This document shows positions 22,041 through 26,388 of a DNA stretch of 64,000 nucleotides, piece by piece. This stretch comes from Paenibacillus mangrovi (GTDB lineage Bacteria; Bacillota; Bacilli; Paenibacillales; Paenibacillaceae). The DNA lies in contig NZ_JALIRP010000001.1 of the NCBI RefSeq assembly GCF_022898935.1, forward strand, positions 124,001-188,000, written 5' to 3'. Each line of letters begins with the position of its first letter. The stretch's first letter is position 1. A model generated the notes under the pieces. It worked only from the letters and a program-made list of their open reading frames with translations. It ran no database searches and was not told the origin of the DNA. The position numbers were made by a program, and so were the translations under genes.

Positions 22041-22952
22041 GTGACACTACAGCAGCTGAAATACGTCATCGAGGTCGCCAACCGGGGATCTATGAATGAA
22101 GCGGCCAAACGGTTGTTTATATCCCAGCCCAGCCTTTCCAATGCAATCAAGGATCTGGAGGAAGAAATACAGATTACGATTTTTGAGCGCACGAATAAAG
22201 GTATATCCCTGTCCAAGGAAGGGGCGGAATTTCTGGGTTATGCCCGGCAAGTGATCGAACAGGCGGAACTATTGGAAAGCCGTTATTTGAACGCCAAGCC
22301 TTCGCCGCAGCATTTTTCAGTATCGACCCAGCATTACGCTTTCGCCGTCAATGCTTTTGTGAATCTGGTCCGGGAGTATGGCCACGATGAGTATGAGCTC
22401 GCTCTGCGCGAGACCAAAACCCATGAAATTATTCAGGATGTAAAAAACCAGCGCAGCGAAATCGGCATCTTGTATTTGAACGAGTTCAACAGCAAGGTGA
22501 TCAACAGGCTTCTGAAGGATGCGAATTTGAAGTTTACGAGCCTGTTTACCGCGAAACCGCATATTTTCATTAGCATACATAACCCCCTTGCCAAGCAGTC
22601 TGTCGTTACGATTGACCAGCTTCAGGACTATCCTTATCTGTCCTTTGAGCAAGGGGAGTTTAATTCTTTTCATTTTTCCGAGGAGATCCTAAGTACCCTG
22701 TCACATCCGAAAAGCATCCGCGTGAATGACCGGGCGACGCTCTTCAATCTGTTGATTGGACTGAACGGTTATACGATTTCAACGGGGGTGCTGAGCGCGG
22801 ATTTAAATGGCAATGAGATTATCCCTGTCCCTCTGGATATTCAAGAAACCATTAATGTCGGCTGGATTTGTCATCAAAATGCCGCCTTGTCCAAGCTGGC
22901 GCTGGCCTACATCGAGGCGCTGCATGAAGCGATATCCGGGGTAAAACTTTAA
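22041..22952 (+). CDS. LysR-family transcriptional regulator
   Basis: A 303-residue regulator starting at GTG 22041. The N-terminal winged helix-turn-helix (LQQLKYVIEVANRGSMNEAAKRLFISQPSLSNAIKDLEE) is unmistakable; residues about 90-300 are the effector-binding domain. Unusually, no divergent target gene is adjacent: the upstream gene runs in the same direction and the downstream one is under a riboswitch. The target may be elsewhere or be the alpha/beta hydrolase. Effector unknown. Confidence 0.9.
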   Translation: MTLQQLKYVIEVANRGSMNEAAKRLFISQPSLSNAIKDLEEEIQITIFERTNKGISLSKEGAEFLGYARQVIEQAELLESRYLNAKPSPQHFSVSTQHYAFAVNAFVNLVREYGHDEYELALRETKTHEIIQDVKNQRSEIGILYLNEFNSKVINRLLKDANLKFTSLFTAKPHIFISIHNPLAKQSVVTIDQLQDYPYLSFEQGEFNSFHFSEEILSTLSHPKSIRVNDRATLFNLLIGLNGYTISTGVLSADLNGNEIIPVPLDIQETINVGWICHQNAALSKLALAYIEALHEAISGVKL

Positions 22953-23125
22953 ACGCAAGTAAAACGGAGATAAGCGAAGAATTTGAATGGTAAAGATGGA
23001 TTAATGATGGGTAATCCATGAAGGGTATCGAAAAAGCACCGAATTGTGGTTTCCCCATGCTTTACAGTTTTAAGACTCAGGAGTATATTCAGGTCATTGT
23101 ATGCGTCAATTCTATCATTTGTCTA

Positions 23126-23264
23126 TATCGCTGAATTTCCGCCAATCGCGGAAAGCGGGGGAACCAGCCGTGATGATCTTGAATCGTCACATGGGGTGAA
23201 TCTCATGTCACTTGAGTAGGGCTACTCTTAAGTCCGAATCCGTCAGCTAACCTCGCAAGCGTAT
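23126..23264 (+). promoter_or_regulatory. Cyclic di-AMP riboswitch (ydaO/yuaA class)
   Basis: The block contains the conserved ydaO aptamer strings in order: CGCTGAAT, AAAGCGGGGGAACC, GGGGTGAATC, AGTAGGGCTACTCTTAAG, then TCCGTCAGCTAACCTCG and AAGCG closing the structure. A terminator follows at 23323-23363, so ligand binding should switch expression of the downstream gene off. It occupies most of the 22953-23394 gap; the first 170 bp of that gap show nothing else I can assign. Confidence 0.92.
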
Positions 23265-23322
23265 AAAGAGAGGCAACCTGGATATATGCGGTTTTGAACG
23301 AGGCTTTTTTTGCCTTGCCCAA

Positions 23323-23363
23323 AGAAGCATTGAAGAGAGGTCCTCTTTTCGATGCTTCTTTTT
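23323..23363 (+). terminator. Riboswitch expression-platform terminator
   Basis: GAAGCATTGAAGAGAGG pairs with CCTCTTTTCGATGCTTC with a short loop and runs into TTTTTT. It lies between the c-di-AMP aptamer and the alpha/beta hydrolase start. Confidence 0.88.
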
Positions 23364-23394
23364 TGCGTTTTATCAGGTAGAGAGGAGAAGAAAG

Positions 23395-24207
23395 TTGCCC
23401 AACATACAAGTGAACGGAACCACATTATATTATGAGACACATGGCAGCGGCGCGCCGATTGTTTTCATTCATGGACATCTTTCAACCCACCATATGTTCG
23501 AGCCGCAGATCGAATATTTCAGCAAGAGGGCCCAAGTGATTGTGCTGGATTTAAGAGGCTACGGCAATTCCGGAAAATTAAACGTCGAAGTCGAAGATAT
23601 TATAGATACGCAGTGTAAAGATTTGAATGAACTGCTGGAAAAGCTGAATCTGTCCAAAGTCACGCTTGTCGGCTGTTCCAGCGGCAGTCTGCTCGTGCAA
23701 AAATTTGCGGCTTACTGCCCGGACAAAGTAAATGCGCTGGTATTGGTAGACAGCTATTTTTTCGGCCCTTACGGGACAAAAAGCAGTCTTTGGAAAATTT
23801 TCGAGGCATGCAGCTGGCTTTCCTACTACCTTCCCGCAGGATTCTTCCTCAGGTCGCTTCGCGTTACCTATAACCGCTGGGTACCCGCGTACAGCATTCT
23901 GAGGGATGAATTGTTTCACAAGCGGCCGACGGAATCGATCAAGCAGCGGATGGCTTTATTAAAAATTGATATGGACTCTAACTCCTCCAGGCTGCGAATG
24001 CCCATATTATGCGTGGCCGGCAGGCAGAGTGAATGGTTCGTGAAACAAATGAACAGGGCTGCAGAGATGTTCGTTTATGCTCAGAAGGTCGTCATTGAAG
24101 ACGCGATATACCCGAGTCATTTATGCCAGCCCCACGAATTCAACCGCGTCCTGCTGAATTTTATGATCGACCAGCATATTTTTCGCGTGGAGCAGCAGTT
24201 GGTTTGA
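23395..24207 (+). CDS. Alpha/beta hydrolase under c-di-AMP riboswitch control
   Basis: A 270-residue cytoplasmic alpha/beta-hydrolase. The oxyanion motif HGHLSTHH, the strand LVLDLRGYGNSG and the nucleophile elbow GCSSGS (Ser) are present, with the acid expected in the C-terminal half and the catalytic His in a SHLCQP stretch near 242. TTG 23395 is the first start after GAGGAGAAG and gives an N-terminus (PNIQVNGTTLYYETHGSG) typical of the family. Substrate not predictable. What stands out is control by a c-di-AMP riboswitch, which normally governs potassium/osmolyte transport or cell-wall enzymes. Confidence 0.87.
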   Translation: MPNIQVNGTTLYYETHGSGAPIVFIHGHLSTHHMFEPQIEYFSKRAQVIVLDLRGYGNSGKLNVEVEDIIDTQCKDLNELLEKLNLSKVTLVGCSSGSLLVQKFAAYCPDKVNALVLVDSYFFGPYGTKSSLWKIFEACSWLSYYLPAGFFLRSLRVTYNRWVPAYSILRDELFHKRPTESIKQRMALLKIDMDSNSSRLRMPILCVAGRQSEWFVKQMNRAAEMFVYAQKVVIEDAIYPSHLCQPHEFNRVLLNFMIDQHIFRVEQQLV

Positions 24208-24289
24208 GTAGGGCCGCATTTAGAGGTTGTTTTTCTTACGATGTAAGGATGCGATCTCTTTGAATTTAATACTTTCTGATATCTTAGAG

Positions 24290-24328
24290 AGGTGGTTTCC
24301 GACTTGGTCGGAAGCTACCTTTTTTTAA
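24290..24328 (+). terminator. Hairpin terminator after the alpha/beta hydrolase
   Basis: AGGTGGTTTCCGAC pairs with GTCGGAAGCTACCT (one mismatch) around TTG, followed by TTTTTT. It separates the riboswitch unit from the next secreted-protein gene. Confidence 0.85.
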
Positions 24329-24423
24329 TTTTTGATTTGGGAATAGAAGGAAGTGGACGTATTTTGTCGAAATCTACCAGATTGCTTGTAAAATATTCCT
24401 TGATTAAAAGAAAGAGAGAGGTC

Positions 24424-26388
24424 ATGAAGTTGAAAAAGTCATTATTTTTTACCCTCCTCATTGGCATCCTGTGCGGACTTGTTTCAACGCATTGGACAAC
24501 CGGTACAGCTTTTGCAGAGGAAGGCAAACTCCAGATTCAAGACATTGCAGGAAAGAATACCTATTTGATGAGCGACGGGTCGATGTGGACCATGTACAAT
24601 GGGAATCGAATCATCCATACACCTGGAACGATTGCTTCAATCAGCGGGGATCTATACCAAGGTAATGGTGTAACCCGGGACGGCCGCTTGATTTCATGGA
24701 GTATGAATGCTCCGGAGGTTGTTGACGGCGTAACAGGAGTCAAGCAGGTGTCGGGAGGCTACGTGCTGAAGACAGACGGAACAGTTTGGATGGGTAAAAA
24801 GCAGCTGAAAAAACTTAGCAATATTCTGCTTATTGGCTATGGCAGAATGGATTTTGCAGCGCTTGCTTCGAATGGGGATTTGCTTTTTGAGGATGACACC
24901 AAACCGGACGGGTTCAAGAAGCTGGGTACGGTAGAGCAGGCTTCCTCGGTCAAATCCATGGCGGTAACTGAAAGTAGGGTGGCTTTGCTATATGACAGCG
25001 GTAAGGTCGTTGTTTACGAAACTTACAACTTTGATGATAACGGCCGCATTATTCCGGTGACGATCACGCAGGATGCGGTTCATATCGTGTACGATCCTTC
25101 GAGAACTCTCATCGTGACGCTGAAGGACGGGACGGTGTGGACGACCGGAGAATATCAGGACCGCTGGAAACTTAAATATCAGGTGCCAGGTCTAAGCGGA
25201 ATCGTTAAAACTGCCGTTGATAATGGTTCCTCTGATATGTCGGAAGTAATATACGCACAGAAGAGCGACGGTAGCTGGGTCCTGTACAAAGACGATGAGA
25301 TTAAGCCGGTTGAAGTGCCTGTCGTGACGAATTTGTCTGTTTCGATATCCGATACCAAGCCTTTTGTCGGGGACAGCTTGAAGGTAGACATCCAGGAAAC
25401 TTATTCTAACGGAGCAAAGATAAAGGTTCCGACCGCTAACGCCAAAGTGGATGTGGAAAAGCCATATCTGATAAAGCAGCAGCAAAATGGTACGTTAACC
25501 GTAACGGGGGTAGGTAAAACGCAGGTCACCGTGACTTCAAGCGGAATATCCAAATCCGTGACGGTATCGTCGAGCCTCCGCAATAATTTGAAATATGCCA
25601 AGCAGGTAGATGGCAGAGTATTCGTCTCGGCGAAAACGGTGATTCAGGCACTCGGAGGTACATTAACAGAAGGAAATGGCGGCATAAATGCAAAATTCGG
25701 CGAGACGACGATCTTTTTTAAAGCCGGTGATGTTCAGGCGACTCTGAATGGCAATCCAATCCGACTCAAAGCAGCACCCATCACGGAAAAAGGTGAACTG
25801 ATGATCCCGGCTTCATTATTGTCCGATGTTCTAGGCGCCAAGATTAGCTGGGATGCCGATTGGAAGCAAGCGGATATTTCCTTTGGGGATGCCAAGATGA
25901 CCGTTGTGTCCTCCGAAACCGCGGGATTAATCAAAAAAGCGATGCAGGGCAGCTTGGCCAAATTTATTGGCCGTACCTACTGGGTGAATGATTTTGAAGG
26001 CTGGGAACGCTTCTCCAAAGTGACGGTAACCGATGTGCTGCCTGTCGACAATGGGGAATTTTCGATCGTATTCAAATCAGGATCAGGCCAAACATTAAAA
26101 ACCTACCCGATGAACTCATCAGAAGTCATGCAGCTGTTTGCGGACCGGTCTTCGTTATTGAATTATGACCCTTATCAGAAATACAAATGGTCTTCCTCAG
26201 TCTGGAAACAGATCAAAGCGGGGAATGTTACGCTTGGCATGACGAAGGAGCAGGTACAGCTCGCATGGGGAAATCCGATTGCCAAGGATATTACAACAGG
26301 GGGCGGCAAAACCATCGAAACCTGGGGATATGCCAATTACGATGTCGTTGCCTTCGTGGATGGAAAAGTGTATATGGTTATCATGTAA
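24424..26388 (+). CDS. Secreted multidomain protein (RCC1-like, Ig-like, copper amine oxidase N-terminal-type domains)
   Basis: A 654-residue exported protein; signal peptide 1-31 with an AFA-E cleavage site. Residues about 35-290 have repeated short strands with DGT/DGS/DGR-W motifs (DGSMWTM, DGRLISW, DGTVWMG, DGTVWTTGE) like RCC1-type propeller blades. About 300-385 resemble a bacterial Ig-like (BIG2) domain, and 390-490 the copper-amine-oxidase N-terminal/stalk domain common in Paenibacillus surface proteins (RVFVSAKTVIQALGG, LMIPASLLSDVLGA). The last 60 residues (LGMTKEQVQLAWGNP...) resemble the SmpA/BamE-like fold. ATG 24424 follows AAAGAGAGAGG. Probably a cell-surface or envelope-monitoring protein; function unknown. 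Confidence 0.82.
   Translation: MKLKKSLFFTLLIGILCGLVSTHWTTGTAFAEEGKLQIQDIAGKNTYLMSDGSMWTMYNGNRIIHTPGTIASISGDLYQGNGVTRDGRLISWSMNAPEVVDGVTGVKQVSGGYVLKTDGTVWMGKKQLKKLSNILLIGYGRMDFAALASNGDLLFEDDTKPDGFKKLGTVEQASSVKSMAVTESRVALLYDSGKVVVYETYNFDDNGRIIPVTITQDAVHIVYDPSRTLIVTLKDGTVWTTGEYQDRWKLKYQVPGLSGIVKTAVDNGSSDMSEVIYAQKSDGSWVLYKDDEIKPVEVPVVTNLSVSISDTKPFVGDSLKVDIQETYSNGAKIKVPTANAKVDVEKPYLIKQQQNGTLTVTGVGKTQVTVTSSGISKSVTVSSSLRNNLKYAKQVDGRVFVSAKTVIQALGGTLTEGNGGINAKFGETTIFFKAGDVQATLNGNPIRLKAAPITEKGELMIPASLLSDVLGAKISWDADWKQADISFGDAKMTVVSSETAGLIKKAMQGSLAKFIGRTYWVNDFEGWERFSKVTVTDVLPVDNGEFSIVFKSGSGQTLKTYPMNSSEVMQLFADRSSLLNYDPYQKYKWSSSVWKQIKAGNVTLGMTKEQVQLAWGNPIAKDITTGGGKTIETWGYANYDVVAFVDGKVYMVIM

Follow-up and report, generated by a model that had tools for sequence, protein, structure and literature searches.

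What does a riboswitch for c-di-AMP control when the gene behind it encodes a lone alpha/beta hydrolase? c-di-AMP is essential in many bacteria, largely through setting potassium levels. The targets of its riboswitches, in the accessible portions of two papers, are potassium and amino-acid transporters together with wall-remodelling and osmotic-shock genes (PMC7266159, PMC9337991). For a locus of Paenibacillus mangrovi, a first-pass annotation had placed a ydaO-class aptamer and a terminator directly before such a hydrolase gene and had suggested that the pairing may reveal a new c-di-AMP-linked function.

We analysed the 64,000-nt stretch of DNA that holds this locus (the window). A cmscan search of all of it against Rfam 15 returned a single match above gathering, to RF00379 (gathering score 38 bits), at 23119-23277 on the + strand, with 101.9 bits and an E value of 4.4e-23. 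The match is full-length (model positions 1-134). The aptamer thus lies where it had been placed, before the alpha/beta-hydrolase gene, and only its start differs, the model match beginning at 23119 and not at 23126. A search without any hit, the outcome named in advance as counting against the riboswitch, is thereby excluded. Folding of 23119-23375 beats 198 of 200 shuffles (z -3.46). The score, together with conservation of the aptamer before the genes of relatives described below, rules out a chance or artefactual match; the riboswitch ahead of the window gene is genuine. The features of the locus are as follows.

23061..23089, + strand: candidate sigma-A promoter, TTTACA-17-TATATT (consensus scan only; 10/12 matches)
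23119..23277, + strand: ydaO/yuaA-class c-di-AMP riboswitch aptamer (RF00379, 101.9 bits; top-scoring of 8 in the genome)
23258..23273, + strand: putative antiterminator 5' strand, composed of the P1 3' strand AGCGU (23258-23262) and the purine stretch AAGAGAGG (23266-23273)
23321..23361, + strand: intrinsic terminator of the riboswitch (19 pairs, 3-nt loop, T-run; the minimum-energy fold agrees)
23381..23387, + strand: ribosome-binding site AGAGGAG (by eye; 7 nt before TTG)
23395..24207, + strand: alpha/beta-hydrolase-fold protein of 270 aa with a degenerate catalytic triad and a TTG start (ORF, Pfam, predicted fold)
24286..24324, + strand: terminator-like hairpin after the gene (18 pairs, T-run)
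24424-26388, + strand: stalk-domain protein gene with a Cu_amine_oxidN1 domain, the next gene after the hairpin

The terminator claimed between aptamer and gene is borne out by the 19-pair hairpin and T-run at 23321-23361. The hairpin scan is weak alone (2 terminator-like sites in 22800-24500 versus 1.5 expected in shuffles), and the minimum-energy fold of 23258-23364 yields the same hairpin. When the 5' arm of the terminator was barred from pairing, AGCGU paired with AUGCU (23352-23356) and AAGAGAGG with CCUCUUUU (23342-23349), both partners lying within the terminator 3' arm. The energy of this duplex, -13.0 kcal/mol, was equalled by 45 of 2000 shuffles. Comparable two-part pairings can be drawn in 11 other close relatives and, less convincingly, in 5 that are more remote; across the 17 leaders the shuffle fractions range from 0.009 to 0.65, and several relatives are individually weak. 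For a possible antiterminator, then, single cases argue weakly and recurrence among relatives is the better argument. The helix would exclude both P1 and the terminator, which is the layout of a c-di-AMP OFF switch.

Under such a layout, at high potassium and c-di-AMP the ligand would hold the P1 stem, its 3' strand would be unavailable for the antiterminator, the terminator would fold and the window gene would be off. When potassium and c-di-AMP fall, the antiterminator would form and the protein would be made, alongside Kdp, Trk/Ktr and other riboswitch-controlled uptake systems. Ligand binding, termination and the resulting expression are all predicted here from sequence. As in RF00379 riboswitches that switch off by termination, there is a full-length aptamer, a downstream terminator and a putative antiterminator that uses the P1 3' strand; the locus differs from RF00379 riboswitches in general in its target, a hydrolase-fold protein.

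We then asked how widely the pairing is kept. The gene family occurs in 41 of 100 genus genomes searched, with 42 genes, and a same-strand c-di-AMP aptamer lies within 441 nt upstream of 35 of them, as two tandem aptamers in 11 of the 35. These counts include G119 and G130, which match only part of the family model (the distance in G130 is to the matched part). No aptamer was found before the other seven genes (G009, both of G141, G022, G129, G019 and G119). Our aptamer model R1 was built from 20 aptamers; at least 13 of the 42 genus genes contributed their upstream sites to it and so match it by construction. Because R1 was partly built from the sites under test, each of the 35 was rechecked with Rfam's own RF00379, which recovers them all (13, a further 6 identified via equal contig coordinates, and 16 out of 16). 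Neither model found an aptamer at any of 28 other alpha/beta-hydrolase loci. These controls are not a random draw: 13 came from relatives, 5 from the host's own genome and 10 from the named collection, with flanks of 1.5 kb per side for 18 loci and up to 4 kb for 10, and L016 and L019 represent opposite ends of a single site. In the search of named genomes, which gave at least 80 loci (L065-L098 taken as family, ten as controls), RF00379 lies just upstream on the same strand at 11 of the 17 loci L065-L081 and at 2 of the 17 loci L082-L098, among the matches listed. The suggestion that orthologues elsewhere might also be preceded by the riboswitch is thus upheld for 35 of 42 genus genes, and the association of aptamer and gene is conserved and very probably under selection.

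Some single loci deserve mention. Upstream of position 1501 in L029, a member without a detected riboswitch, a short stretch immediately ahead of the start, noticed by eye, resembles the first conserved boxes of the aptamer and is possibly a remnant. In a metagenome bin (L095:3903-4345), a 43.6-bit aptamer match runs straight into the hydrolase-fold frame, as after a joining deletion; the junction looks like a pseudogene or an assembly error. Beside one control hydrolase locus there is a run of 13 tRNA genes (L047:2521-3714).

The leaders are not all built alike. The gap between the nearest aptamer and the gene is at least 105 nt in 20 of the 35 genus cases, 11 of which have a second aptamer upstream, and terminators are present in those longer leaders that were folded. 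In the other 15, Mrp-linked ones among them, only 4-10 nt separate the end of the aptamer model from the start codon. No terminator fits ahead of the gene in such a gap, which suggests translational control; the purine-rich sequence on the 3' side of the aptamer would act as the ribosome-binding site. We placed 51 proteins, chosen to avoid duplicates (48 family members and 3 outgroup sequences), on a tree. A starred clade unites the window protein with six others; all seven genes are lone, and those six have tandem aptamers. Over the 48 family members, presence of the riboswitch changes at least 9 times and genomic context at least 12 times, counts that do not tell gains from losses. The placement of several long branches is unsure (L084, L078, L093, L094 and others), and L179 was scored as lone before its KimA neighbour was recognised.

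These observations bear on whether the hydrolase-fold gene is the true target at all. The hairpin at 24286-24324 suggests that the window gene is probably transcribed alone. The riboswitch might instead mainly serve read-through into the stalk-domain gene (24424-26388), which lies immediately next on the same strand and has the Cu_amine_oxidN1 domain, with the hydrolase-fold gene as a passenger. The same hairpin, however, separates the two genes, and relatives keep the aptamer before the hydrolase-fold gene although they differ in what lies downstream; on these two grounds we dismiss the stalk-domain gene as the true target, a very improbable one. A promoter past the terminator that drives most transcription of the window gene, leaving the riboswitch little say, is barely credible. 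Unusual promoters do escape consensus scans, but no promoter-like site was found on the + strand between 23363 and 23395, some 30 nt that also house the ribosome-binding site, and retention of the aptamer before 35 of 42 genus genes argues against it as well. The same consensus scan, run on both strands of 22800-24500, returned 7 sites versus 2.8 expected; those on the + strand are at 23061-23089, 5' of the aptamer, and at 24367-24394, 3' of the gene. A promoter after 23363, which had been named as grounds for giving up riboswitch control, was therefore looked for by consensus scan only and not seen on the + strand. Finally, one ancestral rearrangement could have placed the aptamer before the gene, to be merely copied since as inherited baggage. 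The tree does contain clades with one common arrangement, yet the 9 or more riboswitch changes and 12 or more context changes argue against such a history and dispose of a single-clade coincidence. The aptamer is kept with three outputs (single with a terminator, tandem, or ending just before the start codon), which points to selection on the link. Full-length genes behind it are open at 42 to 85 percent identity. We consider inherited baggage highly improbable, and take the hydrolase-fold gene to be the target.

The surroundings of the relatives suggest what that target may be for. Neighbourhoods of the 42 genus genes were read for about 4 kb or more per side in 39 cases, unless the contig ended sooner, and for 1.5 kb per side in G102, G113 and G114. 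In 12 of the 42 cases the gene comes directly after a complete Mrp Na+/H+ antiporter operon, mnhE (MnhE) alone precedes it in 3 more, TrkH follows within about 500 nt in 2 more, and KimA follows in L179 (870 bits to the solved KimA 6s3k). A cation-transport neighbour is therefore present for 18 of 42 genes, the Mrp cases being partly in one clade and so not all independent. Counting riboswitch, transport neighbour or both, 41 of the 42 genes are accounted for, with G019 alone having neither. In G107, G136 and G121, trkH lies 48 to 92 nt after the gene, so that the riboswitch may control both. An ORF of 92-104 aa directly follows the hydrolase-fold gene in L053/L070:4809-5123, L058, L064/L095 and L175, sometimes before trkH; the L070 copy matches nothing in Pfam or NCBIfam.

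In at least 12 named loci the gene is part of a kdp operon. The order is kdpABC, gene, kdpD in L077, L079, L080, L082, L086, L087, L088, L096 and L098, and kdpABC, kdpD, gene in L083-L085; for L088 the linkage is inferred, as gene and kdpA are on different contigs. In L082 and L086 the reading frames of the gene and of kdpD share 4 nt. Among the matches listed, a same-strand riboswitch stands 395-812 nt before kdpA in 9 of the 12 kdp-embedded genomes, and none was found close to kdpA on that strand in L077 (where the contig is short), L079 or L080. The one kdpD product of these operons that was scanned (L077:4823-7156) has 777 aa, two KdpD domains and no histidine kinase part, and it matches the NCBIfam model of a KdpD-like non-kinase sensor twice. 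In L087, gene and KdpD form a single 874-aa frame; its KdpD part departs from relatives near the end, so the fusion may be a sequence error. With a TrkA_C protein and a Na/H exchanger preceding the gene in L078, five kinds of cation transport adjoin the family: Kdp, Mrp, Trk/Ktr, KimA and Kht-like. The lone position of the hydrolase gene had been read as a possible sign of a new function. A function apart from the known ones is not supported: the kdp, mrp, trk, kimA and kht-like loci of relatives place the family in potassium and sodium homeostasis, the central field of c-di-AMP action.

The host genome (5.94 Mb, 32 contigs) has its own c-di-AMP and Kdp systems. It holds eight RF00379 matches, the window's scoring highest, and two diadenylate cyclase domains. 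The other seven aptamers precede TrkH, the kdp locus (two, in tandem), a LysM/3D protein, a G5/3D protein and two NlpC/P60 proteins. Its kdp locus (contig C29) has kdpABC, with neither a window-family gene nor a kdpD beside it; the window gene stands alone, outside any kdp operon. There the tandem aptamers (L219:1773-2165) are followed by a 130-aa ORF before kdpA, for which Pfam gave no match. A doubled KdpD frame lies elsewhere in the genome, away from kdp (C27:268923-270725). KdpD is missing from 4 of 20 gene-bearing genomes (G007, G019, G172 and G178), so it cannot be the family's sole partner, and we rule it out as an obligate one. The view that best fits the window gene is that it belongs to the c-di-AMP/potassium regulon, is transcribed separately and would be expressed at low c-di-AMP.

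An order-wide search found the family in 31 of 296 genomes and 9 of 48 genera. Among the 12 genomes outside the genus, the gene has its own riboswitch in three (G180, G211 and G178), and in four (G283, G187, G165 and G315) it lies in a kdp operon whose kdpA has a riboswitch upstream. Four others are in kdp loci where no riboswitch was found (G157, G235, G303 and G262, the last on a short contig), and G172 has neither riboswitch nor kdp locus. Judged by equal or near-equal contig coordinates, G180, G283, G187 and G172 are L081, L086, L083 and L072, respectively. In G235 and G303 the gene heads a locus that continues with KdpD and then kdpABC plus a doubled KdpD-Usp. Among the matches listed, the distant or divergent members L089-L094 (Mesobacillus, Lysinibacillus, JCM 10914, Cytobacillus, a Propionibacteriales bin and Heliorestis) have no riboswitch or recognised transporter within, at most, about 4 kb on each side, and L072 (P. 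polymyxa) has neither within the stretch read. The kdp loci of L083 and L085 (Paenibacillus sp. 32O-W and a record named Siminovitchia terrae) are nearly identical, through recent transfer, misnaming or contamination.

We next considered the protein itself. It scores 83.7 bits against Pfam Abhydrolase_1 (cut-off 25.8), and its predicted structure is a complete standard alpha/beta hydrolase (pLDDT 89.5, pTM 0.89); both place it in the superfamily. Foldseek, with VIA-align as a second look at the Foldseek matches only, gave esterases as the closest solved structures, with Z of about 28 to 30 and rmsd of 2.5 to 2.8 over about 250 residues. It is not a known named hydrolase: none of the 25 NCBIfam families matched (PcaD, MenH, BioH, prolyl aminopeptidase and others) reaches its cut-off, the best being PcaD at 74.8 bits against 255.85. 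To assess catalysis we aligned 32 proteins, namely the window protein, L065-L094 and L097, excluding L095, L096 and L098 as partial or frameshifted. The position of the catalytic acid (212) is Asp in none of the 32, that of the catalytic His (239) is His in one, and that of the nucleophile (95) is Ser in 26, Ala in 3 and Asp in 3, while three canonical hydrolases aligned alongside retain Ser, Asp and His. A classical triad of nucleophile, acid after strand 7 and C-terminal His at the usual positions is thus absent, and the label 'hydrolase' that the gene had been given is put in doubt across the 32 members. Five other residues are invariant in all 32 (Asp119, Tyr159, Trp162, Arg177 and Cys244), and position 242 is His in 13, the window protein included. 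The three proteins with Asp at the nucleophile position are L076, L087 and L088, L076 being also the sole member with His at 239; an Asp nucleophile is a feature of epoxide hydrolases and dehalogenases.

With Asp119 invariant and His242 in 13 of 32 members, a rearranged active site is possible. The protein could then be an active hydrolase with a triad such as Ser95, Asp119 after strand 6 and His242, acting on an osmolyte, lipid or cell-envelope ester needed at low potassium. The frequency of Ser95 (26 of 32) fits this, as do the esterase fold and nearest structures, at Z of about 30, and an LtaS-like gene nearby in L054-L057, L064, L071 and L178 (327 bits, below the cut-off of 970). However, 19 of 32 members have Asn or Ser at position 242, and Ser95 is replaced by Ala or Asp in 6 whose genes are still in kdp loci or with a riboswitch, so that no single catalytic set spans the family. 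We regard an active hydrolase of this kind, the chief alternative, as unlikely. The esterases 5egn, 4uhc-4uhh and 1va4 and the D14-type receptors (4ih9) share the fold with the window protein over the whole chain, but its family does not keep the catalytic acid and His and holds other residues invariant. The family protein is, judging from these alignments, a probable pseudoenzyme, and a gene annotated as a generic hydrolase may not encode an enzyme.

On the computed aptamer, terminator, conserved gene association and transporter neighbourhoods of relatives, we consider it likely that a standard c-di-AMP OFF riboswitch controls an undescribed, conserved alpha/beta-hydrolase-fold branch of the potassium/sodium homeostasis regulon. 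The proposal of a new c-di-AMP-linked function holds insofar as the family looks new to the regulon; its context points to cation homeostasis, and it is probably no isolated new function but an undescribed component of a central one. A family that keeps its riboswitch through changed neighbourhoods and output designs would be a missing component of c-di-AMP potassium control. We are less sure of the role of its protein: since the family does not retain the acid and His positions and adjoins five kinds of transport, the protein may assist or sense cation transport instead of being a classical esterase. In kdp operons it is tightly coupled to a KdpD-Usp-type regulator. A fuller version of this idea, which we offer tentatively as a possibility, is that a soluble alpha/beta-hydrolase-fold pseudoenzyme serves as a shared accessory or ligand sensor for unrelated transporters (Kdp, Mrp, Trk/Ktr, KimA and Kht-like), turned on at falling c-di-AMP, and is co-made in kdp operons with a doubled KdpD-Usp, where it may counteract or modulate the inhibition of the pump by that regulator.

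Known systems offer partial parallels. In Bacillus thuringiensis, according to the accessible portions of the paper, c-di-AMP promotes termination before kdpFABC, with a truncated KdpD-type protein downstream (PMC6488665). Relatives of the window gene sit in such operons, and the window gene is instead apart from kdp with its own riboswitch. The word 'hydrolase' is absent from the main text of that paper, and the hydrolase-fold family is unnamed among c-di-AMP targets in the accessible portions of PMC6488665, PMC7266159 and PMC9337991; the original ydaO surveys may mention it. In the open-access literature by listing, we found no paper visibly on the family with kdp, Paenibacillus or c-di-AMP. 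A short KdpD-Usp is described, in the part of the report available, as a c-di-AMP-activated serine kinase that inhibits the Kdp pump (PMC11018627). Kdp-embedded relatives adjoin a KdpD-Usp protein, with the 4-nt overlap in L082 and L086, and that of L077 is doubled, although the four gene-bearing genomes noted above have no KdpD. An RNA-seq table of P. riograndensis, as far as the accessible text extends, holds one ydaO-yuaA leader, before a 'cell wall-associated hydrolase (invasion-associated protein)' (PMC5670726), a name that suggests a wall enzyme and not a window-family gene. The tandem aptamers of the window's relatives correspond to a described arrangement of c-di-AMP riboswitches, for which the available portion of one paper gives 77 doublets (PMC9481103).
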